From Sistotremastrum niveocremeum HHB9708 (lineage: Eukaryota; Basidiomycota; Agaricomycetes; Sistotremastrales; Sistotremastraceae), in the NCBI GenBank assembly GCA_001630475.1, contig KV419398.1, forward strand, positions 657,825-721,824: 64,000 bases of DNA, read 5' to 3'. The notes under the pieces are model-generated. The model saw only the letters and a program-made list of their open reading frames with translations. It was not told the DNA's origin and searched no databases. This document shows positions 9,216 to 52,070 of this stretch, one piece after another. Each line of letters begins with the position of its first letter. Positions within the stretch are counted from its first letter, which is position 1. A program made the translations under genes and the position numbers.

Positions 9216-9218
9216 ATT

Positions 9219-27534: not shown

Positions 27535-29760
27535 GACCTCTCCTTTTGTATCTGACAGTCTTCGTTCGACTTTGTCAATTAATTCGCTCTATTATTAACA
27601 GCTCATTTGTACTCGTCTATGCATTCATTCGCGTAACTTTAACCACTGAAGAAGAAGAAAAATCATATCACTTGAGGTGCCTTGAGCCATATATGTACGA
27701 CTTGCACAAATAACTTGAACCACGCAAAGCCCGAAAGGAGCGCCGCATTGCGAAGAACATCTCGATAGCAAATAAAAATATAAGAAAATAAAACAAGAAG
27801 CAGACGAGAATCCCGACACCCCGCACCTAGTGGCCACTACCCCTACCCGATCGGATAAGGCGTTACCCCGAAGGATAAGATGACCAGTTTGATGTTATCA
27901 AGGGGGAGCCGTGACTCGACCACCGCCGAACGGTCTCACCTGGCCTCCGACCAACCATATACCACGGCACTCATAGAGAGCGCAGACTGAGTTGAACCTG
28001 GGTCGCGACATCCAGTTACTCAGCCCTGTGGCATACAACGATCTTCCAACCAGGCTACCTCGCCCAACGTTATCCTATAGGTATGAAGCACTTCTATAAC
28101 CATTTGTTTCTGCCCTTGTTCAAGCTCTTCCAGAATTCTGAGAGGCGGTGTTGTTCCGAGGTTCCGAGTCCGAGAATGCATCTGCTTTCTGACTGCTCTG
28201 ATAATATTATTGGACTGTTCGCCCTTCAGGCCGTATAGGTTACAAGGTTATTCTGCATCTTGTTAGACGCTTCTTATGAGGTATGATAGTTTGTCGTGCT
28301 TACCAATCAAGTCAAGACATATATTTCCGTAGTTCGCGTAACCGGCGTTGGTCCATTCTGAGACCTGACACATATGATAGATAAATTTCGCTGGCGTCAG
28401 ACAAAGTCTCCTTTACACAGCTGATATTTTCTGGAGACATCTCCGCCAAAAAGGAGAGTTTTCACCATGGGGGATAATTTCTAGAGTGAAGATATAAAAC
28501 ATCCAGCTTCCACAACAAGAGACAAGGCTCACAAACATGGCGCAGTCCTCCAGATTGGGTCTGCTTTCTTTGATTTCTGACTTTTCTTCAGTTCTTTGAC
28601 TCAGGGGAGGCATCCAAGTCACTTTCGATGGCAGAGAAGTGCCGCCGAAGTGATACATAATAGATTACTCAGCACATCTGAGGGACTCGAGATTTAATGT
28701 GTTCAATCCGGTTGTCAACCATCGCAATGACCAGCAACGCTATTGCAAATGATTCTGAAACCAAGAATTAATGGGCAGTGGCATGACAGCGAACTCTTCG
28801 TACCACGCTTCAGAGGACCTCTGACCTAGCTGTCCTCGAATGTGGCGGAGGTGAAACAGATGACAAAGTTGATTGTTGAAGAAGAATGATATGCGGTGAA
28901 TATGGTAAGGAATGAATGGTCCCAATTGACCCTCAGCGGCCTGATACGTTCGACTGGGTGGTGAACGCAGTTGGATTGACAAGGACATACAGCAGCTCAG
29001 CGATCATTCATAAACATATGGAGCCTAACGATCAGATGAGACTGAGCCCGAGATTCTGAATATAAACCGTACGCACAGCGTGACAATGAGATACAGCTGG
29101 CTTCCACCAGTCTCCTAGCTCTCCCGCCATCTCCTCGGAATCCTCTACATCACTTCAAGCCACTTTCCATGCGGGGAGATTTCGAGATCCGAAGTGCCAC
29201 AATGACTTCGCATATGAAATGTTCGGTGCAGAGGCTGCAGTTGGATTGCCACAGTACAAGTCGAACGGCAGCTGAGGGTACGATCATCAGAGCGAACTTG
29301 TGCAGGTCGAAGGGGCAGGACAAGATATTTTCGTTATTTCGAGTCAATGAAATCTTCAGTGAACCGAGTCAGTCCACATCGAGTTGGCCAGTCACTAGTA
29401 CTGTGCCGCACAACGCTGTCAGTCAGTGTGAAAAATGGAGGAAAGGGCCAGAGAAATGATATCTTACATGTAAGTTGACAATAGCTAACTGCACAACATC
29501 AGGATGATTGTGCTGCTCAATTTGGTGCCGGAATTGTTTCTTGAACGTGGTGGGTTGAAACGACGAAGCTAGCTTCTGGCAAAATCCGAAAAGGATTGAA
29601 AGCATCAGCGATGCACCAAAATACTTCACCAATGAACTGAACTATAACTCTGTCTATATCCCGCTCTTCTCATGCTTCAAGATTATAGGAAATCCCCAGC
29701 ACGAATAACAAGAATTCGGGATCTTCCAAAAGCGATGCCGCCGCGACCGTGCTTGCCAAT
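27535..29760 (+). repeat. Duplicated block R1: STE6 3' flank, SINE C and decayed sequence
   Basis: It begins with a copy of the STE6 3' flank (CCTTTTGTATCTGACAG, then TCTTCGTTCGACTT), then SINE copy C. About 1.6 kb follows that matches block R2 at 36350-37730 in the same order. Shared landmarks are TTTCCGTAGTTCGCG, GAAGATATAAAACA, AATGTGGCGGAG and CGAAGTGCCAC. The matching region has open stretches on the minus strand, such as 29423-29632 (KLASSFQPTTFKKQFRHQIE), suggesting a decayed gene that I do not recognise. Confidence 0.65.
27775..28120 (-). repeat. tRNA-derived SINE, copy C (subfamily 1)
   Basis: This is a minus-strand SINE. Its B-box complement TGAGTTGAACC and A-box complement CCAACCAGGCTA are both present. 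The body carries the subfamily-1 string, as in copy A, and the tail is AAATAAAAATATAAGAAAAT. The sequence just beyond its 5' end resembles the DNA just beyond the 5' end of copy A. Confidence 0.8.
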
Positions 29761-31141: not shown

Positions 31142-32034
31142 ATGTTAAAGAACATGTCACCACTTGTCGCGGCATGTGAACCTGACAAATCTAGCCTCTG
31201 TCAGAACACTAGTCTTGTGGTACGGATATTTATCTTATTACGACAACTTGTGTCCACCGGGCGAATCCTTGCAATCTTGAGCCATATATCGTAGTATCAA
31301 TGAGTTCTATTGGAGTTACCAGTACTGAAAAAGCGTTTTGTTTCTTTGAGTGTGTGTGACGCAACTCGAAGGAACGCCTGAGTCCTGGGGTACATATGCT
31401 CGTGTGCTCAACTAAATTGAGTCATGAAACGCGTTATCCTTTTCTGGCAATGCATCTCGCCAAATTCAGGCAAAAGGCGACACCTCGCCCCGAATCTAAC
31501 CCGATTTAGTATCCCCGGCTGATCTCCGATCATGAAGCTTTCCTGATCGACGGGATCAAATTGAGGATTGCCGATCGGCAAGATCTAAGCGAACTTTGGC
31601 GATTTTCAGCGGAGCGGTCTAAATATTCGTATTTGAGCTCTGTAGTCGGAAATGACTCAGAATATCGACAGGAATCAATCCAATAACAGTAAAATTTAAT
31701 CTCAGGAACCAAAAATGATCCCGCAAGCATCACAGAATTGATGAGCGGTTTTGGGGCAGTCGGTCTTGGTCGACATCTTGGCTTTATGGGCCTGAATCAC
31801 GGATATTCCTTCTGCCATGGTCAATTTGGGTCCGCAATTATGATCCACGATCGCTCTCCGCTTTTGAATCGGCCGAAATCGAATAATTTCCAACTCAGCA
31901 GCAACAAAGGACGGACCTACAGTCACCCGCTTTGGGCCAACGCTTTTCTCTTTCTCTCTCTCATCATCCCCTGTACATCGACATCGACATCACACCAACA
32001 CCTTTCCCCCCTCGTATACCATCCATACATAAAG
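31142..32034. other. Upstream region of unknown paralogue 1
   Basis: It includes the block at 31490-31640 that is conserved upstream of paralogue 2, and a pyrimidine-rich 5' leader just before the start codon (TCTTTCTCTCTCTCATC). No gene was seen. Confidence 0.45.
31490..31640 (+). promoter_or_regulatory. Upstream block conserved between the two unknown paralogues (copy 1)
   Basis: Landmarks shared with 48815-48920 are TCTAACCCGATT, CCGATCATGAAGCT, GGGATCAAATTGA (GGCATCAAATTGA in copy 2) and GATCTAAGCGA (GATCTAACCGA in copy 2), in the same order. It lies about 400-540 bp before the start codon. It may be a promoter element or only part of the duplicated unit. Confidence 0.5.
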
Positions 32035-33827
32035 ATGGCTACAACATCTAGCCATGGTAAGCTTCTTTCATTGATTGCCGCTTACAACTCACCTATGTTG
32101 CCAGTGTACTCTGATCCAGAACCCCTCGCAATGCCCCCCCTATCACCTTCGACAACGGCCCAGGCTGCTCCGATCATCACGCCCCAGGGCGCTCTCTTTT
32201 CTGACCGCGACGACTGGCGCGACGGACGACATGTCGAAGCTTCGATGCTTTTGCACCTCTGCAACGAAAGTCTCGCGTCGGGAAGCCTCAAGATGTTACT
32301 CGTGACCGTAGACACGATGGACCTGATTGCGGCGGACATGGTCACGGCGACCCCAGATGGGATGAAGATTATGGAAAGCGTTGCTGTAACCGTCGGCAAG
32401 GCCGTCCGCGAGGAGAAAGTACCGAGAGAGGCTCTTCCGGCGGTTCAAAAGTTTATCGGCAACACGGTAAACAAACTGATCCCCAGGATCGCGAGTGGTG
32501 AAGACGAAGAACTTCTCAAGAAGGTTACGACGTTGATCGCCTGCCTTGACGGGGACTTTGAGGATTCAGAATCCTTCAGGGCATTAATCGATAAACTGTT
32601 GAGGCTAAATTTTCTTTCATCGCTGTTCAAGTTTTGATGAATTTGTAGGATGACGCATGTGTATAGCATGCCTGAGTCCACGAGGTTCAAGCTGTTCCTC
32701 ACGGTCACGCACCAGTTCACATCACTGCTCCTGCGATCTACGGATTCATCCCTTTACTGTGAGAAGATTTTGGAAATGATATCCAAGGCCTCTTCAGCGC
32801 TGCAATTCGACTGCGCGGAAGACTGTCTGGAAATCTTCCTTACGGGATGCAGCAAAGGGGACGCCGCATACAGGAGCCTCGCAGCGACGACTTTGCGAGA
32901 CGCTGCTCTCCAGATGGAGGAACAGCACGACCGAGGCAACAGTCATGCGTTCTCTTTTTTCCCTCGGCTTCTCGCGCGCGTAGAGAAGTTGAAAGATCTG
33001 GGTTGGGACTTCTCCACCGAAGACCTATCACCGGTTTGGACCACCGCCGTAAAATGTGGCGCGAGGATGGTCGTTGACTCTTTTCCTTGCCTCTCCCCTC
33101 GACTCGAAACGGTGATCAATCAGCAGCTCCTCAACAGCTGCAAAGGGTGCACGGATGCGCTCATCAAAAGAGCTAAGCGCTCACATGGGGTAAGTCCAAT
33201 ACGCTCTCTATCCTCATCCGCGTTACTCATATTCACAATTCCACGCAGCTGACGGCAGGAGAAGCTGCCAGTATCAGACATTGGTGCGCAAAGAAGGCGA
33301 CGATTTGGAGTTGTTTTGTGGTTGTTGGTGATGAAGAAAGTCGGAAGAGGCTCCTAGGCCAGTATCATCATACACTTTATAAGATGATGCAGTGGGATGC
33401 GCCGGGCTCACATCGCCACGATATCGAAGTACCGCAGAGCACCATCGCCCCCGATGTCGTCAATACGCCAGCCCTTACTTCCGCCATCTCGATCGGTACC
33501 GTCCCCCGCAACGCAGCCGATCCCACCCCCTCTACCGATGTATCTCGTCCTCTTCCTCGCATTAAACAACAAGCTGGAAGAGGCCGTCAAGAGGTGATGG
33601 CGAGGCAGGAGCACCTGGAGGAGAATCACGAGACACACGCTGGACCTTCGACTTCAGCAGCGCGTACTACTTTGGCGGCACCGGTTTTCTCTGCTGCGAA
33701 CAATGTGGATGCGCCGATGGAAATTGTGCCCGAGGAAGAAGCCGACGATGAACCTCCTCTTCGGCGATCTGCTCGTCTTTCTGGTCCTCCTAAAGCCCAA
33801 GCCGCAATTCACCCTTCAGGCCCTTAA
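32035..33827 (+). CDS. Unknown-function paralogue 1 (544 aa, helical core plus disordered tail)
   Basis: Four exons: 32035-32056, 32105-32597, 32649-33189 and 33249-33827. Introns are 48, 51 and 59 nt; intron 2 has the unusual donor GTTGAG. The total length is a multiple of three (544 codons plus stop). The start MATTSSH is supported because intron 1 falls at the same place and phase as in the paralogue at 49361. The core is rich in predicted helices and carries WRDGRHVEASMLLHL, WDFSTEDLSPVW, KCGARMVVDSFP, CKGCTDALIKRAKRSHG and RHWCAKKATIWSCFVVV. The last 130 or so residues are disordered, with an acidic patch and RRSARLSG. There is no recognised domain, signal peptide or membrane segment. 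The repeated helical pattern could be an ARM/HEAT-like fold, which is an inference only. See paralogue 2 for comparison. Confidence 0.8.
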
Positions 33828-34889
33828 GAAATTTGCCTTTCAATTCTGTCGAACATCCCATTGCGGAGCATTGCCTTTCGTAACGGTTTTGCGGGGAAAC
33901 CTGCATCGATGCATTCCTATCATTATCTCTCGAGTATTTTTTCTCTGCCAATGTGACATTCGTTTTGTACACTCTCTTTCACGCACATTGTATTTTTTCA
34001 AATTTCATCACAGCGAGATGAGCGAAACTGAAAGAGTCCGGATCCGACGTGGTCCAACTTGTTTCGCGCCGTCATGTCCTCGCTCGAGAGCGCTCCGTTC
34101 ATTCCATACCCAAGCAACCTCCTCTCATGATCACCGCACTATCACTTCAAATACAACCAGAAGAGTAGGACGAGCTATTGTCAACAAGAATCTTTGAAGG
34201 CAGCCAAAGAGTCAGCCGTTAACCAAATTCACATTCACGTCAACGACTCAAAGTACTGTAATTTTCAGTCTCGTCTGTCATCATGCTGATCACCCAACAG
34301 GGAAATACCTCGAGCCTTCCGGAATCTTCGGAGGACAGCATCGGACGAGCGAGTGCTTTCGAGAGATTCATGATCTGGAAGGAAACGTTGAAGATTCTGG
34401 AGGCTTGCGACAGGACGTCATCTGGCTCGCAATGCCGCCGTACGTGAGAACAATTTGAACTGTCTTATATCGACCATTCACTCCTTTCTTTTCAGACGCA
34501 CCGTATTCGTTCCACCTCTCGCCGCCGACACACAAAGAAAGCCAAAACGATGATTTGTACCAGATCCCCAGCAGCACCCGGCACAATGGCAATTTCACAG
34601 AAGTGCGAGGGTGTGGGATATGATTGGACTCGGTGCGTCACTAGTGCATCTTTGATCTTTGCACGCAAATCCTGATACAGTCCTCGTAGACACAGAAATG
34701 ACACAACGGAGCATGTTCGAGCCTCACCAATCAATTCGTTCAACCTTCAGCATCCAGCGTTGTGGACTGGTTCACGCCCAGCAATACACTGGTCAAATCC
34801 CAAAAGGACGCGCATGTATGTCTCCAATATAAATGTATAATGATCTTTGCGCTGACTCTGGTAGGCTTCATCCTGTCAGGAAATCATCC
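33828..34889. other. Intergenic, no supported gene
   Basis: It contains the 3' UTR of paralogue 1 and unassigned sequence up to the STE6 remnant. The continuing ORF at 33703-34197 overlaps the paralogue 1 tail in another frame and is a shadow. Nothing further was recognised. Confidence 0.4.
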
Positions 34890-35960
34890 CGCCTGTTGTA
34901 TCGACTTTGAAGAGAGTTGTCGGTGCATTCCCTCCACCTCCGTTGGCTCCAAATCCGACTCGATCAGAGAAAGACGCTCTTCTGAGAGTTGCTGACATTG
35001 CAGCTCTCTTTTGATGGCTCATTTGTGGGTGCGCTCGCGCTGTCGACTATCATCATACCTCTGTCAATTCCGGATGGGAAGAGGAATGCGTTCTGGTTCA
35101 GGAGGAGAGTGGCACGGGGCAGGATATGGCGTGATTTGACTCTACGATGGGGATAATGCAAGTGCTGATCATACACACTTCGCAAAGTTCGTCGTCTTCT
35201 GAACGATATAGCATTATGCTGATGAGATGTAGGGATAGGAATATTGTCCGGACTGCCAGTTGGTTGATGACTGACATGATTATTCAGAACCTCCTCACGA
35301 TTCGCGGGGCTCGCTTTGCTACTCAGAGGTCCATGGTCCCTCACATTCGTCATCTTGTCCACGATCTCTATCTCGCACATTATTCTAATTTTGTCCCGAA
35401 TGTTCGCCGCTCTCCCGCTCGCAGTTGAACGCGGAACGGTTTCTCAAGCCGGCAGCGCATTCAACGGCAGACACGCGGAATCTGTCATGTGCATGACGAA
35501 CTTTCGTAGCGAGTGCTTCAATCTCAGTTCGGTCAGGACAAGGAATGATTCAAAAAGCCTGAAAATCTGTCTCAAGCTCTTGTGCAGACTCTATTAGGAC
35601 TTGGGAAATGCCAGGGTCTCGTGGATCTCGTCATCGGACAAGCTACAGTTGGCTTCACGACGCCTAGCGTCGGCTCGATCTGGGCGTTTTTTTCGGTTTC
35701 GCGATTCAAGCTTACTGGTCTCGCCATCGGGCTCGTCTTCGCAGGTGTCATATTCGTCCAATCGACTCTCGAGGGTTCATCAATGCAACAAGCTTTGCCA
35801 AGAAGACATCACTGAAAAATGTCACGAAGCCATCTGGTATTCTTTCAATGGCGATTTGGGGTATCTTCCGCGAACACCGGCGGTACGAAAAGGCGTTGTA
35901 GCTTGCTCTTCGTACAGGTTTGAAGACGGCGTTCGTCAAGCGATGTAATTTCGCGCTCGC
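34890..35960 (+). pseudogene. Internally deleted copy of the STE6-like ABC transporter
   Basis: Homology to the intact gene begins with a Pro-rich loop (PPPPLAPNPTRSEKDALL, against PQTPNPPQSAKDTLL). It continues with VGALALSTI, FRRRVARGRIWRDLTLRWG, DRNIVRTASWLMTDMIIQNL, GPWSLTFVILSTI and LPLAVERGTVSQAGSAF. The next match, CMTNFRSECFNL, belongs to the second transmembrane domain (MTNLRKKCFNL). It is followed by LVDLVIGQATVGFTT, LAIGLVFAGVIFVQST and YLPRTPAVRKGV. The end of TMD1, all of NBD1 and the linker are thus missing, and the frame changes several times. The copy ends before NBD2, and the STE6 3' flank follows at about 36040. It is a non-functional relic in inverted orientation to the intact gene. 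Confidence 0.85.
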
Positions 35961-36039
35961 TTTTGCTACCGATCGATCCCGGTTTGAGCCTTCCAATGTT
36001 CGTTAATCCTCGACGCTATGACGGTCATTTGCATAGAAA

Positions 36040-37730
36040 CGTTTGATTTTGATTTTGATTGTCCTCGCCCCCCTCTATTTTTGTATCTTGCAATCTTTGT
36101 CCAGGAACTTCAATGTGATTTTGAACAATTTCTGTGTATGCAACTTAAGCAATTAAGGAAGAAAAAAATTCATCTCGACAACCTGAATGTATGAGCTGCT
36201 TTGGCAAATGCATCTACTACAGCTTGCACTAATTTAAAGACCATCTGTATAGCGAATAAAAATATAAGAAAATAAAACAAGAAGCAGACGAGAATCCCGA
36301 CACCCCGCACCTAGTGGCCACTACCCCTACCCGATCGGATAAGGCGTTAATGGATTTCCGTAGTTCGCGCGTTCGAATCCACTGTGCGGGATGACTCCTG
36401 AAGTGAAGATATGAAACACACAAAGCAAGGCTCACGAATATGCCGCTGTCCACGTTCTTTTTTGCGTTCCTTTAGGTTTTTCTTTTCTACTCGTAGGAGG
36501 AACAATTTCGCTTGCGGTGACAGACACACATAGTCGAGTTGAAGAGGGGGGAACGTATCTGAGGTGTAGCTTGAAATCCTGTACGCTCGTCCCTGTACGC
36601 ATTGCAACGAGTGGTAGAGCGTTCGCAAATTATTCTGAAAATAATGAAGAAATGACGGTCTCAAGACAGCGACAGCGTCGTACCGTGGCATCAGGGGGTC
36701 TCTGGCCCTCCTGTCATCAATGTGGCGGAGTAGCATGAGATGATATAGTTGATGGTTGGAGAATATGCTATTTATTGAGGATGATCCAGAAGGAAGAGTG
36801 CCGATTGACTCTCGACTGCTTGATAAATTTGACAGGATGATGGATGCAGTCGGCTTGATTAGGAGCTGCAGCTCAGTCATCGTTCTTCGGCACATGGACC
36901 TGAATATTAGATGAGAGTGAGTCGAGCATTCTTGACCCCAGAAAGCATGAACGCTCACGCGCACAGGTCATGAAACTCATCCAGCCTCCGCTAGTCCCTT
37001 GACTCTCGTCGCAATTTCTCTTGCTCACCCTAGAAGCCACGTTCTCGCCGAGGATATTCACAGAGAGTCGAAGTGCCACGAATGAGTTTAAAGATAAGAC
37101 GTTAGATCGAGAGGGTCCAATTTGAGCCCCAGGCGAACGATGAAGCATGTTCATAAGCGAGGACTTGTAGCCGTCGAAGGTGTTGGACACAAATGAGCGA
37201 ATGGCAGGCCAAATCAATGCAGCTTCACTGAACATATCCATCACACATAAACACTCGGAGAAGAGTTGATCTATTCCTGGACATGGATATCAGCTGAGGG
37301 TAAGGTCAAGAATAATGCCAGAATGACGACACCTGATAAAATATTTGACTAGACATCGTCGTCATAAGGGTTATCCCAGAGGCAGATTTGAATCAAAATT
37401 CGTTATCGAACAGCATATTTTCGTGTAGAAACCTTGCTTGAAGCAGCTCTCGACTCAGATGCCAACTGGGAGAGCGAGAGTCTGGCAAAACCCGAAACGC
37501 ATCGAAGAAATCCGTGATCTTGCGACCATCAACGTTCCACGGACAACTCATCCTCCTTCTCCATGCTTCATGAACGACCAGTACAAATTACCTGAGGTCA
37601 AGAGAAATCAGGCACTTCTGTTGCCGCGACCGTGCCCCACCGCACAACGCTCCAGAGTCCAGAGCCACTGCGCAGGATCCCGACGCCGACCGTGTAAAAC
37701 TGGAGGCCCTGCGACCAAACGCGTTCTGTC
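36040..37730 (+). repeat. Duplicated block R2: STE6 3' flank, SINE tail and decayed sequence
   Basis: It starts with the STE6 3' flank (TTTTTGTATCTTGCAATC, then GTCCAGGAACTT), continues with a truncated SINE tail, then with about 1.4 kb that parallels block R1. Compared with R1, a segment from inside the SINE to the TTTCCGTAGTTCGCG landmark is absent. The 205-residue minus-strand ORF at 36347-36964 lies here; it does not match the equivalent frame in R1 and is probably accidental. Confidence 0.65.
36248..36352 (-). repeat. SINE copy D, 3' tail only
   Basis: The stretch AGCGAATAAAAATATAAG, then AAAATAAAACAAGAAGCAGA and the adjoining 3' body up to GATCGGATAAGGCGTTA, is nearly identical to copy C and then stops abruptly. 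The whole promoter-bearing head is missing. Confidence 0.8.
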
Positions 37731-38198
37731 TTAATTCGTCTTATGGTCGAGATCCATCCTGAGGTCCTGAGTGCTCATTTTCAATGCTAACCGCACTCTA
37801 CAAGGTCGAGATGGTGAGGCCCAAATATTCAGGACTCGGGGATGGACCGGGAATTCAACAGTCCTGCGGTGCTGAGGGTCTCTTACCTGGATAGACGGAA
37901 CATTGGCCAGAGCTTGAGCAGGGGTACCGCGGCTAAGCGATTGACATGGGCCGCTCCAGTGAAGACACGCAATTTTCACATGCCACTAGTGCAGCAACAC
38001 GATGGACGAGGTATCGAGAAGCATCTGAATCCCTCTCTTGATTCTTCCCAGTCCGCATTCAAGTCGGTCTCTTGCTTGGGACACCGATTTAGCATGTCCG
38101 ACGACACTGAGCCCCTTACATTCGCCAAGGTCAAGCCACCCCCTGGTCTGTGGATTATATATTGTCGATTCAACATCACTGACTATTCCTAGACTTCT
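37731..38198. other. Upstream region of the membrane protein gene
   Basis: This 468-bp spacer precedes the start of the four-pass membrane protein. ORFs in it on both strands are short. No element was recognised. Confidence 0.4.
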
Positions 38199-40298
38199 AT
38201 GATGCAGCCAAACGAGAAGCCCTTGCATAACACCAGAGTGCCTCCGATGCCTTGGCCTCCTGATCCGCAGGAGACGCATCTCCTATCGGACTATTCAGAT
38301 CCACCAAATACTCTATATCGTCATTTCTTTTTCAACAACTGGGAGACAGCTTGGCGATATCTGTTTGCCATCATACAATATGCCATTGCCATTGTTCTCC
38401 CTACCGCGTTCATCGGTGTCCTAGCAACAAGCAATGGAGGACTACGCGCTCCCAGCTCTCTTGCAGACTTAGCGACCAACAAGCCTCGTACGACCCTTAT
38501 CATCGTCACCATCATCGCCACAATTTTGTCCTGGCTGGCTCGAAATCTATTCTCGAGAATAATCTCCTTCGTTGCGCGAAAGCGCGCGCTTCGGTGGTCT
38601 ACGCTTGAGACCATCGAAGTCTTGGCCGCCCTGAAGTCTGGGAGAGCCCTCCAGTCACGCACGCGTCCGATGAAATCCGTCATGACCGTCGTCTCAGTAG
38701 TCGTTCTCGCGGCGCTGACGGCTGGGTACACAAATATTTTCAATCCGATTTCAATTCTTCTGGCACAGCCTTTACTGGGTTGGGAAATTGATTTCCTGTC
38801 CACGGACACCCGGTGTCCTGCGTGGTTTCAACAGTATAATCTATACAGCACAGGAAGTTGTGATTGGAAGGTACGAATTCACTTTCCCCCAATTAAAACG
38901 TCAATCTGATTAGTCCTAGACTGTTTCGGGTCTGACGGTCAACACTTGTTGGGCTTCCGGTAGGAGGCTCGAAGTTATGATCGCCGGTCGTTCTGCAGTG
39001 CGTCTCTCAAAATTGAAGGATATATTCATCCAGCGCTTACACGATACTATCCTAGATCGTCCGAAAGTACAAGAAAGAGCTCGACGATCTTGGTGCTCCG
39101 GAGCTTCAAGAAGTCGTCGAAGTCTACGAAATGGGAGGATCAACATTTTATGGATCTACAGGAGGCATAGTCCCGCAGGGCCCGGCCAGCGACAAGCATC
39201 TTGACACCACCTCTTCGTATCAAAAGACCGCCAATTCGTCGCTCGAGCTGCAAGGACTCCAAGTCTCAGTCTCCTGCGCATATATCGACCAATCTCCCAT
39301 GACATGGATCCCTGCCGACGCTTCGGGAAATATGGTCAATTTTACCGGAAAATGTGCCAGCACAGGCGATCAATCCTGGCAGCTTCCCAACAGTAATTTG
39401 CTCATCGGAGCATACAGCTGTCCAGTATCATCCGACAACGCCAACGTCGAAACGCAGATGTTATATTTTTCTCACTTTGGCGCCGGCTTGGATTATCAGA
39501 TGATTGGCAATATCAGCTGCGAGGTTAGCGGATCTATCGCCACCGGCAATCTCGAATATACCACGTCCATGTCTGCCTTCTCGTGGACAGCTGGTACTCC
39601 GGTTGAGACGCAGACACCAAGCTTCGATGTCGTCGCCATCGCCATGGACGCTCTGGTATATGTTTTGGAGACCGGACAAAGTGCCGACGGGAACTTGTTC
39701 ATCGATGCCATTAACTCCATATATATCCCATTCGTGAAGGACCAGATCGCGGGCGAATCAAACCCACCACTTAGCTTTCTCTCCATGCTGGAAACGATGA
39801 CTCAGGGGGTCGTCGAGTATGAGGTATGTGCTTCTCTGCGATGTTCCGACGATGTGCTAACTGATTCCTTGAATGAAGGCATCATTTCTCCGACTTCTGT
39901 TCACACTACAAATGCTCAATCAAACTTCCGTTTCTACTAAACCAGACTATTGCGCGCGTTGGATCAACGGTAGCATGACCTGGCCGACATTTGGATGGAA
40001 TGCGAGCTCACACGCCTTGCTCGCCTATCTTCCTATAGGTATAGCAGGCCTAGTAATGCTCTTCCTTTTACTCTGGATTCTCTTCGGCATGATATCCTCC
40101 CGCCTGGCACATTTTGATCCAACCGACTTGGTTTCGTTGGCTGTCGCTTCCGCTGGGTCCACTTCAGTATTCCCGGAGGGTGTCACTCTTGACCCCGACG
40201 ATGAAAGACCTCGACTGACAAGTGTCAGATTTGAGAGTGTTCCTGGCGGAATACTTCGATTCGTCGGTAAGCCTTCTGAAGGCTCGTTCTCTGCATGA
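38199..40298 (+). CDS. Four-pass membrane protein with large Cys-rich, N-glycosylated loop (unknown function)
   Basis: The start is ATG 38199 (a second ATG follows directly) and the stop is at 40296-40298. Exon 1 (38199-38870) encodes three hydrophobic segments (IIQYAIAIVLPTAFIGVLA, TLIIVTIIATILSWLA, VMTVVSVVVLAALTAG). An intron follows (38871-38919), then a short exon TVSGLTVNTCWASG. A second intron into IVRKYKKELDDL is placed at about 38962-39055; that junction is the weakest. A long extracytoplasmic region follows with several Cys and N-glycosylation sequons (NFTG, NISC). Intron 39824-39878 precedes the last exon, which has more sequons (NQTS, NGSM, NASS), the fourth membrane helix (LPIGIAGLVMLFLLLWILFGMI) and a cytoplasmic tail. 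It resembles a large basidiomycete-specific family of membrane proteins without known role. The gene looks intact despite lying among relics. Confidence 0.75.
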
Positions 40299-40549
40299 CG
40301 CACCCTGTCGTGCTTTCTTGTATCTAAATTTATGGGCTCAGACCAAGTCTTATTTGAGAGTTATTCTCATCTTTGCAGCGTAGTATCACTATACATGTAC
40401 GCGTGTACGACGTAGTTGCTTTTCTTCTATGTTACATATTTTGAGTTGCGAAGCAGTCTTATTCTATTCTCACCAAAATCTTGTCATCTACTGACTCTAG
40501 AAAAATATATGAATGTACGCATCAAAGATATATAATTTGGTTCGTGACT
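40299..40549. other. 3' region of the membrane protein gene
   Basis: This A/T-rich stretch lies between the stop codon and the start of duplicated block U2. Nothing was recognised. Confidence 0.4.
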
Positions 40550-43500
40550 GTGGCTACACTTGAGTCTCGTTGGCACATCCTTCTGATCAAAGCTTTGAAC
40601 TTTAGCATCGAGTAATTAAGCAAAATAAAATGAGAGACAGACGAGAATCCCAACTTCCCTCACCTAGTAGCCACTACCCCTGTCTATATATGAAGGCAGA
40701 GCGTCACCCCGAGGGATGAGATGGCCAGTTCAGCGTGTTCAAGGAGAAGCCACGACTCGTCCACCGCCAGGCGGTCTCACCGGGCCGTCCAACCGACTAT
40801 ATACCACTGCACTCATAGAGAGTGCTTGACTGAGTTGAACCTGGGTCGCGACATCCAGTTACTCAGCCCCGTGGCATACAGCGATCTTCCAACCAGGCTA
40901 CCTCGCCCGACGTTATCCTATATGTGTGTAGCCATCCTATAAGCATTAATTTCTCCCCTTGCAGCGTCCCTTTGTACGAGGCGGTGCATTCCTGTTCCAA
41001 TAGATGTTTCCGTAGTCAAGGATGCTTCAAAATTGATTATTCATGAACTCATTAGGCCGCCGATCATGCCTTACCATCACAAGTTTGTCTATGCGCTCGT
41101 TTCCTGTTATTTTGCGGTGAGGCCGATCGATATCCTCGACTGTATCAAGGCACGCTTTTTCTGGTAATTCACCAGTTCGTTTTTTATCCCGGGATTGGCT
41201 CCTGAGATATAATGAGTTCTGCTAACCTCAAGAAGAAGTTATCGCGCACCATCCTGTCATACAGTAGCGTTCAATATTGTCGAGGTCTGCTGTCACTACA
41301 CCCACTACCTTCAAGGCGACCATTGATATTGTGACGGCAGGGCACGAGAGCATAACCAGACCAGAACGGTATAAGAGCCTCCTTAATACGCTGCATTCAA
41401 CACCTCCAGTCTTCAACACACCGTGAGCTATGCGTTCGACTCGGAAGGATATGATAGACCCGAGACTGACTTGACTCACAGTACGTCCAATGAGATCGAA
41501 GCTCACAGCTTTCAGCATCAAGTCATCAAGAAGTATATTTCAATGACCCTGTAATGAACGTAAAATTGTTATTCCATGCGAAGATCTCAGGATGAGGGAT
41601 GCATCGCACCATGACTTAGGATCACACCTCTGATGCTACCCCCGGAGATGGTCCCTCGCGCAAGGAGAAAGGGTTCATCGCAGTGACAGTCTGATCCTCA
41701 GTAGAAAGTCCAGCATGTCCATTGTTAGATTGGCAGTAGCCTCTTCTTACTGGGTCTGCTTGTGCTGTAGCGATCTCAGTGAGCCGATGATACTTCGAGC
41801 GAGAGAAATAGGCAGGATGAATGACTTACGGGAACACTGTCAAAATGCCCCAGCCTGGTGATCACGAAGTCCAAATAGTGTCCAAATTCGATAACTTGAG
41901 TCCTCAAGCACGCCTGATCTCGAGACTGAACGTGAGCGAATGCTTTTGAGACGTGAGGCAAAATCCGAAAGTCCGTTATCTTCACCAAGGACGATTGAGA
42001 GTGACCGTCGCACACCGTTCTTTGCTTCCACCTAATCTCATACCATATGAAGAAGCAGGGCAATCCAGAAGAGCTCTCAAAACGACTGGGCTCCTGGCAA
42101 TATCCATGCCAAAAGAATTCCAAAAGTGAAGACACTCAAATGCGGATATTCCAGGACAGCTGGAACAGTCGAAGCGTCCTGGCTTGATCACCCTTAGGGT
42201 CGATATCTCACCCAAGTTATCCCCTAGCACCCTCCAAGACCGTTCTGACTAGGGCACAGAAGACAGAAATCGTTGGGATTGAACACCGTCAAATAATTTC
42301 AAGTCGGCGATCCTGTGGGCTCGTACCGGCGCATTTGATACCATCTACGCTCCGGCTTAAATTTCGTCAGAGAGGAGAACCGGGACGATTGTCACTGAGA
42401 TGGGTGAGTTTAACATCATATCATCTGATACTCTCAGAATTGATGCGTTGATCAGAGCGATATTTGTCTGCTGATCCTTTTCTGTCCCCATTCAAGCCTA
42501 TCGCTCGTGGCCTACAGGTCAATTATCATTCAAGAATACTCAATGGCACGACGATTCTTTCGCTCGCTAAAGACATCAAATTTCACATCATGAATTACAT
42601 GGAAGACTGTCCGATCTCTGTGGTTTGTCAATGCATTCCTTCAGACTTCCCGACACTCACAGTGCGGTCAGGAGCAGGTGATCCTCTTTCTAAATGGTCT
42701 GGGCTCTCATACTGTCCAGCAGCCGCCTCCACCATAGTAAGTTCTTCGCCTGCTCTTCTCACTCACGGGCTAACCACATGGAGTCAGTGCCATCGCTGCG
42801 CGACTCGGATGCGCAGGTAAGATCACTCGTACCATACCAACATATGTTTTCATGAGCTCTGGATCAGACTTCGTGTTTTGCCCCAGTAGCCACCCATGCC
42901 GCGTATCCTCTTTGTGTCATAAGGGATACCGGAACAAGACGCATCAGCGATCAAAGATCATCGGATACTACAGGAAATGGTCGACTTGAAATCCGAATAT
43001 GCGCATATTAAGGAATTGAAGTATTCACTACCGAATAGCGAAAGTTTTATGATCTTGAGCTACTGTGTGCATAGTCCAGGTATGTCTTCGTTCAACATGA
43101 GTGGTCAACCTCTCAACAGCGATATCGAGCAGTGGATACTATACTCCGAAAACACTTGCACCGAAAGCCATCTTCCAAATCGCTTGAGCCTCTAGACGCT
43201 GACATCGACACCTTCATCAACAATACCTGCGTTTCCGCTTGTAGATAGTTGCCTTTCTCTCATCTCAAGCCACTACATTCCTGGCGCTCCGTTTTTCAGG
43301 TCTTGAGTACTTCGTTCGATTCTACAATGCACCGATGACTAAAAGTTCTGTCGCCATTCCTTCTACGACCGGCGGGCATCATGTTCTTGGACTTTGGAAG
43401 TTATTCTGCGGTACACTATCATCGGTCCTCACTCCGCTGTGTCGACGGACACGATGTCCAAGGAAAACACTTAGGAAATTTGTAGTCATCGCTATAAACT

Positions 43501-43560
43501 TAATCTGTGGATACGGATGAGGAGGCTAGCTTTTGGATGGGATACAAGGTGTGCTTACTG
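40550..43560. repeat. Decayed duplicated block U2 (with SINE copy E)
   Basis: This roughly 3-kb unit is repeated in the same orientation at about 45635-48600. Shared landmarks, in order, are CTTGAGTCTCGTTGG, the SINE, GCGCACCAT, TGAGCCATTCGTTCGA-like sequence and CAATCCAGAAGAGCTCTC. Then come GCGTCCTGGCTTGATCAC, AGAATTGATGC and TTGAGCCTCTAGACGCTGAC-like sequence. Short ORFs on both strands match between copies (for example VLRALLDC and ILPHVSKAFAHVQ on minus, LEPLDAD on plus), so it probably contains one or two decayed genes. I recognise no family. Confidence 0.7.
40618..40961 (-). repeat. tRNA-derived SINE, copy E (subfamily 2)
   Basis: This is a complete minus-strand copy with A-box and B-box complements and the subfamily-2 body, ending CTTAAT/TTCTCCCCTTG at its 5' side. 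It occupies the same relative position in block U2 as copy F in U3 and copy B beside U1, so the insertion predates those duplications. Confidence 0.82.
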
Positions 43561-45634
43561 TTGGTCTTGTAATGGTACGGATGCTCATGCACTTCATTGA
43601 CGCGTTTAGTTTTGCATTGAGACAATACCACGCGCTTCGGCGATAGTAATCATTTCTCGTTGGCCGCCACTTTCTCATACGTCACTCTAGATCCCTACGA
43701 GATAGACCTCGCCTCACAATCGTCAGATTCAGGATGTTCTCGTAGGTATGTTCCAGCCTGTTGATATCATTCCCCCGTCCTCCCCGCGCGGGGAATTCGT
43801 CTGGTCTGTAAGTGAAAGGAGCACGCAATATTTGTTGCTCTCTCATTATTTCAGCACTTCTTAGGCCCTTCATTGCGACCCCTGCATGTGGAATATGAAA
43901 ATAGGAGAGTCCCAGATAGCAGACTCATCAAGTCACCAAAAGCTCGATTCAAGACGGTCTCTTCTGGTTCCTGGAGATATCATTCAAGATCAGCTTCTCA
44001 ATTTTCTTATACAGCAGTGTGCTGAACCGGAATAGTCCAAATAGAATGCGATCTGCAATCCGCCCCCAACCTCCCACAGTTTTCAATTTGGTAGTTGTTG
44101 TCAATTTGTCATCACCGTATTCAGAACTAGAGATGAACGACTGATTTGTACAAATAAATACATGTACTGTACGGCATCGGTCCTTCGGACGATTTTTGTA
44201 TTTGGGCCCTATTGTAGAGCAGCCGTACCTCAAATTCAAGAATAAATTTCATGTGGATATGACACAGCACGAAACGGATCTACTTTGAATTTATCAGATT
44301 TTACTGACCTTTTGTGCTCGAGGAATCGACCAAAGAACTCAAGCAGTCAGCGTGGGAAAATCCCTACTCGTTCGGACGCCCCGCCTAGAGCCCGGTTTCG
44401 CAGCCCAGCGCACCATCGCCTCTTTGTTGAATATGGCCTATTTATTGCTTTTCATAGCATGAAATGATGATATAGACTACCATACACAGGCAGACATCAC
44501 AAAAAAAGAAAAGCGTATCTTTGTAGAAGCATACGGATAGCATAGAAAACATATGTTTTTCGCATACAAGTAACCGATTTCTTATCACGAAATGCAACAT
44601 TTCCGACCAGTTAAATCAAATAAATGTGGAATAATGCCAGTTTAATCCTGCCAAAAGGGACGCAGAAGCTCGCTTACTCCAATAATTGCCTTATTTGGTG
44701 TTTATAATGAGAGATGAAATCATAAAATATATATTATTCCATGCTAGGCTACGCACTACATCCTATCGTTATTGGTGCTACTGCGCGGGCACTCCTAGCG
44801 GTCTTCGTATTCGAGCGTCATACCGGTACTGCACACTTCTCCGTGGCACCCCCGCCCTGTTCCAAGGGGCCCGACTAAGCAAGCGACCGAGGGCTCAACT
44901 ATAGGTGAGAACTGCCGTATCCTTCCACACTACTCTCCAAGATCCGTTTGATACCTGTGTCGCCTCCATACCACGGATTTGGTGCCTTAGAGAGGAGATG
45001 CCGTGGGTATTATTTTTACCGCTTGCCTGATGGAATGGAACGAAAGGTGGAGCCCAGGGCGAGATACTAGAGGCAGCGGAGATCCACAGAGAAGACAAAC
45101 TGGGACAGTCTGGCACAGAGAGAGACAGAGAGAGCTCGAGTCGAGGCGCTGAGACATACCGGTACCATGAGAGTGACGAGACACCGACCAGGGTGGCGGA
45201 GACGTTGAATGAGACGGTGACCAGGTAGCGAAACTTGAACTTGAGTGAGGACCCAAGACTCTGATGATATCGATGAGAGTGATGCAGCTTAATGCGGAGG
45301 GAGGGGAAGACTCAGCGAGTTGCGTGAGGAGAGGATGACGGGCTGATGAGGGTTAAGGAAAGAGAGAAGTTGATGCTCCGACGCCAAGTTCAACTTGCTT
45401 TGCTCAGGCATTTTTGGTTGAAGAAAGAATTTGGTGATGCAAAAAGTGTGAATTTAATTTCTTCAATCTTGGATGATGACACATCTTCGGCTAAGTCTCC
45501 TTTACGCCGTTCGAAAAGTGCTGGGGGGTTCGGAACCCTGAATTATGCCAGATCTAATAGAAAACAAAGCATTTCGCTCAGACAAATGATCTCAAATGCA
45601 CTTCATGGGTTTCTTTTTCTGGGATGTCTGGCCG
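43561..45634. other. Spacer between blocks U2 and U3, no supported gene
   Basis: The stretch is A/T-rich in the middle (about 44200-44720). The ORF at 45346-45690 (MRVKEREKLMLRRQVQLALL) is uninterrupted for 114 codons, but its 3' end enters the repeat U3 and no splice partner was found, so it is not called. Nothing else was recognised. Confidence 0.4.
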
Positions 45635-48600
45635 TGTACTTGAGTCTCGTTGGTGCATCAATGACAGCATCATTCCAATCAAAGCTTTAAACCGGTCAAC
45701 ATCAAGTAATTTAGCAAAATAAAATGAGAGACAGACGAGAATCCCAACTTCCCTCACCTAGTAGCCACTACCCCGACCTATAGAAGGCCGAGCGTCACCC
45801 CGAGGGATGAGATGGCCAGTTCGGCGTGTTCAAGGAGAAGTCACGACTCGTCCACCGCCGGGCGGTCTCACCGGGCCGTCCAACCGACCATATACCACTG
45901 CACTCATAGAGAGTGCTTGAATGAGTTGAACCTGGGTCGCGACATCCAGTTACTCAGCCCCGTGGCATACAGCGATCTTCCAACCAAGCTACCTCGCCCG
46001 ACGTTATCCTATCGGTATGAAGGTGCGCTATAAGCACTTTCTTCTCCCCTTGTAGTTTCCCTTGTGAGCGGCGGTGCATTCCGAGTCTCCGTTTCCGATA
46101 GACGTTTCTGTGCTACACAGAGATAGCTCTGTAGAAAATAATCGTGCTTAATAATGAACTGGATAAGCCATTTTTCGTGGCAAATTTAATACTAAGAGGA
46201 TTATCTTACATAATTTATGTGTCCCTTTCTTCACCCTTTGCTGAGAGGCAGTCCCCACCCGATGTGTCGAAGCAGGATTACTTGCTAATTCACTATTTCG
46301 CTTTCGATCCTGAGATTGGCTCCTGAGATAGACTGAGTTCTGTTAAACACAGGAAAAGAAGAAGTTATCGCGCACCATTCTGTCACATCGTCCAGTGTTG
46401 TCGAGCCTGGTGTTAACATTATTTTCGAGAGGCCTTTCCCAACGGCGACATAAAAGCATAACAAGACCAGAACGGCATGGGAGCCTCCTGGATAAACTGC
46501 TTTCAATGCTGCCATTCTTCAACAGGCCATGAGCCATTCGTTCGAGTGATATGATGGACCCGAGACTGACTTGACCTGCAATACGTCCACTGAAATCGAA
46601 ATTCACAGCTTTGGACATCAAGTCGTCAAGAAATGCAATGACACTGGAATAAACGGACAAATTGTTATTCAAAGCGAATATTTCGGAGAAGGGATCCGTC
46701 GCACCAAGACTCCAAGTTAGCATCACATCTCTGATACCACCTCCGGAGAAGGTTCCTCTTGCATCGAGAAAGGATTCATCGCAGTCCGCAAGCTAAGACT
46801 CAGATACCATCAGAAAGCTCAGCGTGTCCGATGTTGAACTAGAAGTAGCCATCTTCCTCTCAATGGGTCCGTTGTAGCCATGTGCCATTGATCGTGGGCC
46901 GCTGATAATACTTCAAGCGAAAAAAGGGGGAGTGAACGACGGACGCAGGTAAATCAGAATCCGTCATCCTGGGGATTACGAATCTCGAAATCGATAACTT
47001 GATTATTCAAGCGCACCTGCTCTCGGAATGGGACGTGAGTGAATATTTTCGAGAGATGAGGCAAAACCCGAGAGTTCGTGGTCTTCACCGAAGACGATTG
47101 ACGGTGACCATCCTTTGGCTTTGCATACTCTGACACTACCCGAAGAAGCAGGCAATCCAGAAGAGCTCTCAAAACATTTAGGAACTCCTGGGTATGTCTA
47201 TCACATACGTGAAGACACTCAAATGCGATTAGTAGTAGTCGTCGAAGCGTCCTGGCTTGATCACCCTTCGCCTCGAGATCTCACTCAAGTTGACCTCCAG
47301 TACCCCTCAAAACCGTTATTTTGAGGGCTCGAAACACAGACATCGTTGGCATGGAACATGGTCAAAATAACTTCAAGTTGGCGATCCTATGGGCTCGACA
47401 CGGGAGACAATTGTCACTGGCTTGGGTGCGTACCACGTTCTAGTATCTGATAGTGTCAGAATTGATGCATTGAACAGAACGATATTCGTCCGCTGACCGT
47501 TCCCTATCCGTTCAATCTTGTCGCTCATGGATTACACGCCGATATCCGTTCAAGAATTTTCAGGGCTCTTTCGCTCGCTAAATACCTCAAATATCCTCTC
47601 CGTCATTTCGGCATGGAAGAATGTCATATCTCTGTGTTTTTCATTGCATCTCTTGATTCTCCCAGATGCTCACAGTGCGATCAGGAACATTCGATCCTCT
47701 TTCAAATTGGTCTCGTCTTTCACACTATTCCAGCCCTTGTCTGCTGAATAACCTCTTCGTCTAATCTAGCAAGTCATGCTCTGCCGACATCGCATGAATG
47801 TCGTTGCACGCGACTCGGACGGCCAAGGGAAGATCACCTGTACCATACGTACTAGCATATGCTTTCCTGAGTTGTCGATCAGATCTACGCGCTCTTACCA
47901 TGGCACAAGCAGCCGATCTTGTTACCAGTCCTCCCGGGTCTCAAGGGTTGTCTGAACAGGAAGCCTCCACAATTGAAAAATATTGAATACAGCAGGAACC
48001 AGTCAAATTGAAATCCGAACTTGCCCATTCCAAAGAGTGGAGGTATTCACTGCTAACGAACCGAAGTCTTATCAGTTTGAGCTTTTTAATAATCCAGGTA
48101 TTTCTTCGGAGAACACGAGTGGTCGACCTCTCAACGGCGATATCGAGTAGTGGATGCTCGAAAAACACGTGCACCCAAATTCATCCTCAAAACCGCTTGA
48201 ACCTCTAGACGCTGACCTCGACACTTTTTTCATCAACGCCTGCATCGCGGCTTGCAGATTCTCTTATCTCCTGCTCCCAGATTCTCCTCTATCTCTTTTT
48301 CAAGCTTGCAGTACTTCGCTCTTCTGCGTCGCTCTGCTGACTGGGAGCTCTGTCGCTATTCGTTATACAATCAGCGGGATTCTTGGTTTCTGACTCTGGC
48401 AACGATAATATTCTCCTGTGAACCATCATCGGTCCTCTGCGTCCACGGGCACCCGAAACTCTATGATCAATGAAATCACTCAGAAAGCTCCCTTCATTGC
48501 CGTAATTTCTTGATAGGGATAGGGATGACGAGGCCAACCTTTGGGATTCAATGGGAAGCAAGGCGTGCTTGTTTTTGGCAGTTCAAGGCTACAAATTCTC
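45635..48600. repeat. Decayed duplicated block U3 (with SINE copy F)
   Basis: This is the second long copy of the unit described for U2, about 5.1 kb away in direct orientation, diverged by many substitutions and indels. Its best-preserved reading frames are minus 46954-47172 and 46343-46726, and plus 48154-48393 (LEPLDADLDTFFINACIAAC). Frames are broken relative to U2, so both units are relics. Confidence 0.7.
45714..46053 (-). repeat. tRNA-derived SINE, copy F (subfamily 2)
   Basis: This is a complete minus-strand copy, very similar to copy B. It includes CCACTACCCCGACCTATAGA and the B-box complement TGAGTTGAACC, with 5' end CTTTCTTCTCCCCTTGT. Confidence 0.82.
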
Positions 48601-49360
48601 ATTCACTTCATCTAGGCGGTCTCATTTTCGAGATATATGTATCAATGGTTTTGGTCAAACAAATATGAATAGAAACTTGATAGTTGCAGACGCAGCTGAT
48701 TTGACTGCATGTACTACAAGTAGCACCTCTTTGGGCCGAGTTCGAAAAAATGACAATTACCTTTCTCGGCAATACCTGGAGCTATTTTTGCGATCTTTCG
48801 TCCTCGATTCCAGATTCTAACCCGATTAGGTAGTCCGATCATGAAGCTGTTCCGATGGACGGCATCAAATTGACCCTGATCTAACCGAGTTTAGCGAATT
48901 TTAAGCGAGCCGGCCGGAAAGTCATCTCTCATTACAACGCTAGAGCTTGAGTTCGAGAGAGTGGACTAGTGGACTGCTCCGGAATTGTAATCGCGGTCAT
49001 GGACGCTTTTTCGTCCAATGTGGAAGGCAGAGGCGCCTCAGGAGTCGGAACCGCAGATCTCCTAAATAATTGGCATTTATTTGACGCCGTGATGTCTGCG
49101 GTTTTGGACCTAGATCGAAGCATCTCACATCTGTAGTGGATAAGATTCGTGCTTCGCGATACTTTGGCCTAAAATTGGTTCTAAACCCTCGAACGGCAGA
49201 AAATTGAACAAGTTCGGGTTCGAACTTCGTACCCCGCAAAATCGAGGAATGGAACCATTTGGCGCCCAACTGTCGTTCACCTCCTTCATCCCCCCACCCA
49301 CATCATCCCTACCTCGACAACGTTCGAGCACATCATCCACCTACCTAGCACTATCATTCC
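48601..49360. other. Upstream region of unknown paralogue 2
   Basis: It carries the conserved upstream block at 48815-48920 and a C/T-rich leader close to the start codon. No gene was seen. Confidence 0.45.
48815..48920 (+). promoter_or_regulatory. Upstream block conserved between the two unknown paralogues (copy 2)
   Basis: The landmarks match those at 31490-31640, in the same order and at a comparable distance (about 440-545 bp) from the start codon. It is slightly shorter than copy 1. Confidence 0.5.
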
Positions 49361-52070
49361 ATGCCTTCCAGCGCAGCCTCCGCAGGTCCAAGTACCAGTG
49401 GTAAGCTTCGCTGATATAAATCACTCTCTTGAATCTTGCTAAGGCGTGTCCTAGGAACGAACGACAATTTTTTGTCAAAGCAGACGCGGGGAGCAGATGA
49501 AGTAGAAGACGAGGACACTCTGGGATGGGTTCCAGAAGACTGGGACGCTGGTCGACACGTCGAGGCGTCCTTCCTCCTAGAGTTCGCAACGCGAAGCATC
49601 AGGTCCGGCTCCCTCGATATGTTTTCTGTCACCGCGAAGATCGTGAACAGGATAGCCCGAAATCCTCTCGCCCAAACCCCCGACACACTGGACATTATGG
49701 GAAGAGTTGCGGAGAGTCTTCGATTGGGCGTCTGCGAGGGAACCGTGCCTCTGGGTGCTCTGCCTCAGGTTAAGATTGTCATTAGGAACGTCACTGCCAA
49801 CATGGTCTCGAGAGTCGTCACGGAGCACGATGAGAAGCTAGTAAAAGATGCGGTTATGTTGATGTCGTGTCTGGCAGTGGACCTAGGCGAAGTAGGTGCT
49901 GCGCTGACGCTACTGAGTGACCTGTTGAGTCCATTTCCTCTAACTGAATTTGCATCTCAACGTTCACTATTTTCCTCAGCATGCACCTCAAAATCTTTCC
50001 AATGGCGGATATGTTAAGATTGAAACTTTTTACTACCCTCTTCGACGCCTTGATGGTATGGCGGTTGCGCCCAGGCGAATCACATGTCGCGACGGCAATC
50101 AACCAGTTTCTCTTTCAAATTCTCGTAAACTGCGCCAGTGCTTTGGACTTAGGGACGGCCCAGAGATGCGTTGAGAGAATGCTGTTCCGGTGTTCCAAAC
50201 CCCCATATATGCTCACTGGCGGAGCTATGCTCCGAGAAACCTTTTCGACCATTCAGGTCCTACATCAAGAAAGCGATCCTCGGGCTTTCTCTCTGCTTGA
50301 ACGAGTTCTCATCAGCGCGGAGAAAATGGTGGCCGACGCAAACTGGGACTTTGCCAGCCCTGAACTATCACCAGTCTGGAAATTGGCGCTACACTGCGGC
50401 GCACGGATCCTTACAGAGACTTTCCCAGTACTACCGCCAAATTGCCAAGGGGTCATCACTCCCGAGAAGTTGGTTCAACACTGTGGTTTATGCACGGATG
50501 CGCTGCTCGGCCGAGCTAAGAGAGAACACGGTGTACGTTGCCATCGAATTGTTCTACCTTTACTCTACTTAATTTGGCACAGCTCTCTGCGAACGATATT
50601 GCTCGCATCAAGCATTGGTCTGCGCAAGTGGGGAAGTTGTGGAATTGGTATATGGTCGTCCCTGACGAGGAACGAGCAAAGATAATCTTAGGTCATTATC
50701 ACAAGAAACTTTGCCTGGGGATGGGATGGGAGATGCCTGCGGTGCACCACCACGGTTATCGAGATTTGTCTCAGGGAGCCCTTCCGACGCTGCCTATCAA
50801 AACGCCGACCCCAACCCCCACGATACCCCCACCTTCCACTACTAGTATTCCCCACGCTATTCCCTCAGACAATCATCCTCCATCATTCACCGCACCTCGT
50901 GCACCCCTCTCGAGTAAGACCAGAATCTCGAGGCCGAGTACTTTGAGCGCCGTGGCTGAAGTCGACACCTTGGATGAACAACTTGAGAAACAGCTTGAAA
51001 TGAGAAATCCCGCCCCTGTACCAGCCACGGTCCACCCATCGAGTGCCATTCCTCGTTTACAACCAGGCTCTTCCGCAGCAGTCCCGTCCACACCGACTTT
51101 CGATACGAAAAGGCCAGACGCCGGAGTCCTCTTACCTCTGTCAAGAAATACGCAAGCACCATTGAGGTGTGCATCGCCACCTCCCGAGATCAAGACTCCC
51201 CCTTTTGCATACAGGGGGATGCATACTCCACATAAGCCTGGAGGAAAACCAGGACATGGTAACCCTAGTAGCTCGAAGAGGAAAGATATGGAGTCAGCGG
51301 CTGACAAGGAAAATGCGAATGCTAATAAACGGGCCCGCTATAATACGACTTCCCCGACTCCGACAAAGAAAACTTCTCGTCAACGAGTCGCACCTCCGAA
51401 ACCAACTCCCGCTCTTCATGCAGCTATCGCTGGCCCGAGTCAGCCAACAGGGTCGACTTCAATCACTCATCCGGTGCTGCCGCATCACATACCTTCCCTC
51501 CTGCCACTTCGTACCGCGTCGCAGCCTGCCATTTCGCTGCAGGGCTATGGAACTTTCGCTTTTGCGAACCCTGGGCAGCTGCACGAGACGGACTATAGGA
51601 GTGATTCATCGTCTGGGCCTTCTCCTCGACTTCCGCGTCCATTAAGCTTCAGTCCTCATATGAGTCCCAACCAGCCCGGTATCGATCTGGATGCCATGCG
51701 CTCGCCTGGCCACCGTCTCGGGGATGGGTTTGCAATTCGATACCAGCCGCCAGCAGTGTCCTGGGACCCAGAAACCATTGCTCGGATGAGTTCTCAGGAT
51801 TTTCTACCCACGGAACCGCAGGGAGGACTTGGGAGCACGCAACACGTCAGTGAAGATCACGATGCCCAGGCTGGGCCCTCGAACAGGACGTCGCAGTTAA
51901 CGAAGGACCCCGCTGCGGCCAACGTGGAGAACCTTCCAGAGGCGACGAGAATTACAGCAGAGGCTGCCCCTATGAAGGTTTTAAGTGAGCAGCTCATACA
52001 TCCGCCGTTACTGCCGCGTGCCGACGCCGTGCCGTGTGTGGCATCCAAAGTACCTGTCACACTTTTATAA
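49361..52070 (+). CDS. Unknown-function paralogue 2 (849 aa, helical core plus long disordered tail)
   Basis: Four exons: 49361-49400, 49455-49923, 49980-50532 and 50583-52070. Introns are 54, 56 and 50 nt at the same positions and phases as in the gene at 32035, again with a GTTGAG donor for intron 2. Exon lengths sum to 850 codons. The core aligns with paralogue 1 throughout: WDAGRHVEASFLLEF, MADMLRLKLF, WDFASPELSPVWKLAL, HCGARILTETFPVLP, CGLCTDALLGRAKREHG and IKHWSAQVGKLWNWYMVV. The tail of about 450 residues is unlike that of paralogue 1. It is Pro/Ser/Thr-rich, with basic clusters SSKRKD and NANKRAR that could form a bipartite nuclear signal, and short motifs such as RLPRPLSFSPH. No known domain is seen. 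A nuclear scaffold or regulator is conceivable but unproven. Confidence 0.82.

Follow-up and report, generated by a model that had tools for sequence, protein, structure and literature searches.

What are the two similar genes that lie open at 32035..33827 (A) and 49361..52070 (B), both on the forward strand, in a 64,000-nucleotide window (the whole stretch of DNA analyzed here) that is otherwise littered with repeats and broken gene copies? We consider them two old, probably working copies of one gene in what is probably a basidiomycete, to judge by the alpha-kinase, the rva_4 integrase, and the Nop53 gene in the window. Gene A is modeled with four exons (32035-32056, 32105-32597, 32649-33189, and 33249-33827; 22, 493, 541, and 579 nt) encoding 544 aa, and gene B with four exons (49361-49400, 49455-49923, 49980-50532, and 50583-52070; 40, 469, 553, and 1488 nt) encoding 849 aa; both spliced frames are open. 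A third copy was not found within the window.

The two proteins share a core in which 137 of 373 aligned positions are identical (37%; blastp E = 1e-77), a similarity far above chance level. Splicing and alignment thus bear out the proposal of a first-pass annotation, made from the sequence alone, that A and B are paralogues with a common core, and the islands by which it had recognized that core (GRHVEAS, DLSPVW/ELSPVW, CGAR, and CxxCTDALxxRAKRxHG) were all found. The most conserved part of the core runs from WDF..(D/E)LSPVW to HxH. Gene structure tells the same story: as had also been proposed, three introns are common to both genes, with phases 1, 2, and 0 in each when derived from exon lengths. 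Intron 2 (32598..32648 in A, 49924..49979 in B) splits one and the same codon of the alignment (residue 172 in A, 170 in B) and opens in both genes with the GTTGAG donor that the first-pass annotation had noted (at 32598 and 49924), and intron 3 (33190..33248 and 50533..50582) falls directly after the same HG. Intron 1 lies at 32057..32104 in A and at 49401..49454 in B. In A it has a GTAAGC donor and an alternative acceptor at 32119, and is not required by the frame, which is open if the intron is retained and open with either acceptor (32104 or 32119); its support comes from the donor, with nine of nine intron bases as in B, a resemblance that by itself lies within shuffles (score 18, null maximum 22).

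The divergence of the two genes is deep. Over 365 aligned core codons, pS was 0.70 and pN 0.42 (pN/pS 0.60; bootstrap 0.53-0.69), corresponding to dN of 0.61, dS of 2.0 (saturated), and an omega of about 0.3. When the aligned tail codons were included (459 codons), dN was 0.64 and dS 1.8, and 67% of 82 fourfold sites differed. Random, selection-free mutation of coding sequences of the lengths of A and B (200 runs at each of six settings, 0.3-0.9 changes per site) introduced a mean of 10-31 stops and never fewer than 2, compared to none in the real spliced frames. A and B are therefore an ancient pair under purifying selection: with dS saturated, omega about 0.3, and no stops where the simulation always produced them, the pair is old and at least one lineage has been constrained. 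The selection suspected from the open frames is thus upheld by the core-specific dN/dS that had been put forward as its check. Most likely both lineages were constrained; a recent loss of one copy is conceivable.

To which family might such a pair belong? No significant match to A or B was found among the 24736 models of Pfam. Up to E = 10, A matched a single Pfam model, BROMI_N (Broad-minded N-terminal domain, PF23431; residues 121-183, E = 0.068); at 13.6 bits against a gathering cut-off of 25, and with B unmatched, it was taken as chance. Searched with the cores, the 18950 NCBIfam models gave weak matches and none that was significant, PHROGs gave none that was significant, and PADLOC gave no match; the best weak matches in these libraries, phrog_26850 (E = 0.0093) and BagB_FevI (E = 0.021), were each confined to one of the two members and were likewise put down to chance. 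A core profile run against PDB sequences retrieved only two sorting nexin-1 entries at E = 0.5, which is not significant, and the core of B alone retrieved nothing up to E = 10. Viral contigs yielded no confirmed relatives (25 pattern matches for the core, 9 for its C-terminal part), and neither did prokaryote genome contigs (143 and 237, respectively); every scan relied on two short peptide patterns. For a eukaryotic gene, absence from such collections is to be expected and is weakly informative. Five motif strings of the pair occurred in no paper of the literature searched. The earlier statement that the pair fits no named family holds insofar as four profile libraries and the PDB sequences gave no significant match, but the status of an undescribed family, which would rest on negatives in Pfam, NCBIfam, PHROGs, PADLOC, PDB, and the viral and prokaryote contigs, is not established.

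There is an even chance that A and B already sit in a catalogued fungal orthogroup or are divergent members of a known helical family. The contig collections searched were viral or prokaryotic, which leaves room for this reading, and two reports (PMC8893723, PMC10949477) put unannotated mushroom genes or families in the hundreds, one comparison alone listing 172 conserved unannotated orthogroups (PMC8893723); the pair may fall in one of these. The weak, below-cut-off match of A to BROMI_N would also speak for it, and the absence of any significant match among the Pfam and NCBIfam models speaks against it. Even if the pair belonged to a catalogued orthogroup of unassigned function, the functional question would not be settled. 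The conserved unannotated Agaricomycete families (snowball/snb1; Spc14, Spc33, and Cc.ctg1, PMC8893723) resemble our pair, which is probably basidiomycete as well, in that they contain no recognizable domain of known function and are kept by selection. SNB1 differs in that it is reported to have seven transmembrane helices (PMC10949477), compared to at most one borderline hydrophobic stretch in A and B, a comparison made by description only. Most likely, the A/B pair is one more unannotated fungal family. Should that family prove widespread in fungi, the unannotated share of mushroom proteomes would gain another protein that is constrained and open to experiment.

The hydrophobic stretch in question spans 19 residues of B (146-164), contains D and E, and has a mean hydropathy of 1.72; the usual cut-off for a membrane helix is 1.6, and the maximum in A is 1.42. 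No signal peptide was seen in either protein. We tentatively regard both proteins as soluble.

Structure prediction of the core, which had been proposed as a further check, gave an all-helical model, but with low confidence and a fold that could not be named. Two AlphaFold (AF2) models were made of A from exon 2 through exon 3 with intron 2 read through, one from A alone (mean pLDDT 59.9, pTM 0.43) and one with pieces of B (mean pLDDT 63.2, pTM 0.46); they were based on alignments of one and three rows, include 17 intron-derived residues, and lack the last 57 core residues. Both consist of helices with no strands. In the second model, 103 of 328 residues had pLDDT values of 70-90 and none reached 90. 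Foldseek searches with this model returned 1044 matches at E ≤ 10 against the PDB and 362 against viral structures, none of them at E ≤ 0.001. The two best PDB matches were a circular tandem repeat protein and importin alpha, and 29 of the best 50 of the 1044 were armadillo proteins by title (13 importin alpha, 15 beta-catenin, 1 APC); their E values span 0.025-0.14, and many of them are one protein across several entries. Query TM-scores among these best 50 were 0.14-0.30, with rmsd values of 12-23 Å. The armadillo matches are no real fold match and at best hint at a structural class. Like the modeled core of A, the armadillo alpha-solenoids such as importin alpha and beta-catenin are all-helical; however, A and B show no sequence match, significant fold match, or repeat signal that would tie them to this class. 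No ARM or HEAT profile in Pfam matched A or B up to E = 10, in searches where the HMMER filters discard most weak matches, and split self-alignments of the two cores were no better than shuffles (172 and 116 of 200 shuffles equaled them), in a pairwise test that diverged repeats could escape.

It is also conceivable, though improbable, that the core forms a helical bundle with a metal-binding or catalytic role, in which a CxxC-x11-H-x11-H arrangement near the core end holds zinc. The putative ligands are equally spaced in the two proteins (C336, C339, H351, and H363 in A; C338, C341, H353, and H365 in B), but with only two sequences compared this conservation counts as weak evidence. An unbroken helix between C339 and H351 would separate the ligands, and the models are helical there, at pLDDT values of about 50 or lower. 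No zinc family was matched in Pfam.

Our proposal for the function of the pair is a possible reading that we put forward tentatively: a helical, solenoid-like scaffold or adaptor core joined to a disordered tail, present as two copies under common upstream control. The core of about 370 residues would be all-helical and solenoid-like and would bind a partner, with the partner-holding role centered on the part of it that is most conserved. The disordered tail would evolve fast and carry phosphorylation and targeting signals that differ between A and B, so that the two genes, sharing upstream control, would divide labor through their tails. Confidence is low for each of these elements: the solubility, the helical fold, the scaffold role, the shared control, and the tail-based division of labor. 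The analysis does demonstrate the paralogy, the common introns, the purifying selection, and a conserved block upstream of both genes.

The tails themselves, previously put at about 130 and 450 residues, comprise 135 (A) and 438 (B) residues after the core. Their composition is 68-70% PSTAGQEKR, and their share of ILVFWYMC is about half that of the core. Of the 18 SP/TP sites of B, 14 fall in the tail. B also has three S/TPxK/R sites, one in the core (330) and two in the tail (569 and 613), and its tail further carries one KEN (596) and a KRAR cluster (603). In A, two of the seven SP/TP sites lie in the tail and S/TPxK/R sites are absent; the tail of A carries RRSARL, a motif known from nuclear proteins. 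Short motifs such as KEN, KRAR, and RRSARL would be expected to occur by chance. The view that the tails share nothing but disorder stands as far as their disorder-promoting composition goes, but they may also share a weak block, (E/Q)H..E.H...AGPS, at 466-493 in A and 767-794 in B (blastp E = 0.017), ending 51 and 55 residues before the respective C-termini. Its similarity was reached by none of 2000 shuffles of the last 85 residues, a window picked post hoc, and by 151 of 2000 shuffles across the whole tails.

A feature newly observed here is a conserved block upstream of both start codons, about 420-560 bp 5' of the ATGs. In A it spans 31483..31615 on the forward strand (about -552 to -420) and in B 48802..48910 on the same strand (about -559 to -451), with 88 of 136 alignment columns identical and a center (31525-31564 in A, 48834-48873 in B) in which 35 of 40 bases agree. 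Its alignment score of 86 compares with a shuffle mean of 25 and maximum of 47 (200 shuffles), and with a score of 75 for core exon 3, making it the strongest noncoding similarity among the A and B stretches compared. Elsewhere, similarity between A and B exceeded shuffles neither in any of the three introns nor in the 3' flank nor farther upstream, and did so slightly from -300 to the ATG (score 42, null maximum 36). Within the block, a GACGGSATCAAATTGA-type stretch (31545-31564 in A, 48854-48873 in B) has been kept upstream of both genes despite saturated synonymous sites. A 20-base probe with the B sequence (one ambiguous base, up to 3 mismatches) found these two sites only, against 0.03 expected, and a 15-base probe from the block found four matches in the window, two of them with 3 mismatches, which is at chance level. 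Because synonymous sites are saturated, the block has been either retained by selection, in which case it would be a regulatory element, or made uniform by gene conversion, or it is a repeat that was placed before both genes.

A dispersed repeat is not favored, with no third copy in the window and with weak similarity running on toward the start codon; the block may nevertheless be a repeat occurring elsewhere in the genome. A coding exon is likewise disfavored, judging from the letters themselves: stops would lie near the center, and the alignment gaps are 2, 13, and 1 bases long. In one frame read by eye, a stop stands six codons before the 40-base center in A and immediately before it in B, and in B another follows within four codons after it. 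Two shorter motifs were also counted. TCTAACCSGA, which lies in the block, was not enriched in the window (5 matches against 6.5 expected), and CCGATSATGAAGC, allowing up to 2 mismatches, gave 8 matches in the window against 4.5 expected, a count that 6 of 100 shuffles reached. No Rfam family matched at its gathering score in the window, nor up to E = 1 in 31380-32060, and ARAGORN found no tRNA. If the block does confer common control, A and B should be co-expressed. The fullest version of our proposal, in which a new fungal family, with a divergent helical fold peculiar to it, is served by a regulatory block that has outlasted synonymous saturation, the two genes are under common control, and their tails have diverged functionally, is unlikely to hold in every part.

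We rate as quite improbable an origin of A and B from a mobile element, or as selfish or conflict genes among the relics. Both lie within DNA rich in repeats and degenerate gene copies, and an inverted pair (31528-31542/34361-34375; 15 nt, 87% complementary) flanks A, with its left arm in the upstream block. However, arms of this kind (14-21 nt, 81-93%) are near what chance would give over 4-5 kb, in our judgement, and none of the six inverted pairs listed encloses all of B and its upstream block. Neither protein contains a transposase, integrase, or reverse-transcriptase domain from Pfam, only two copies occur in the window, and no shared terminal repeats were found; a 5' flank is common to A and B, whereas the 3' flank is within shuffles. 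The nearby repeats are, moreover, less diverged than A and B (69-96% DNA identity). The broken neighboring copies share about 71-74% DNA identity with their partners (VWA-gene and ABC-transporter regions) and are by inference younger than the A/B duplication, and gene A is open although it is placed between broken pieces. That we are dealing with chance frames or decayed relics, as the antisense and alternative ORFs present in the same stretches might suggest, is a negligible prospect; in one lineage or both, this reading of the core is refuted by the omega of 0.3, the long intact frames at saturating synonymous divergence, and the shared introns.

In the DNA around the pair, a broken VWA-domain gene region at 25953-27453 corresponds to 5743-7297, and a broken ABC transporter gene region at 34967-36002 corresponds to 11292-15328 (aligned parts 35487-35948 and 11563-12038); gene A lies between these two broken pieces. 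A further stretch, 24175-25417, is a broken copy of 916-1987. All three copies run in the opposite orientation to their partners, but their left-to-right order is kept, and therefore they are not one simple inverted block. A 3-kb direct repeat (40558-43597/45638-48611), 69% identical, looks like a decayed mobile element. Its first ~900 bases recur inverted at 9212-10133 (88% identical to the first copy), and shorter pieces of it lie at 8829-9195 and 27774-28119. Between A and B, on the forward strand, three open pieces at 38193-40298 form by eye a possible membrane protein; they had no Pfam match (two of them searched up to E = 0.01, the third up to E = 1). Beyond B, the reverse strand at 56741-57472 matches an alpha-kinase (Pfam PF02816, E = 3.2e-06), and just upstream of this match is a long ORF (57487-58494) with no Pfam match up to E = 0.01. 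An integrase core domain (rva_4, PF24764, E = 2.5e-06) lies on the forward strand at 60686-61315, and the window also holds a Nop53 gene.
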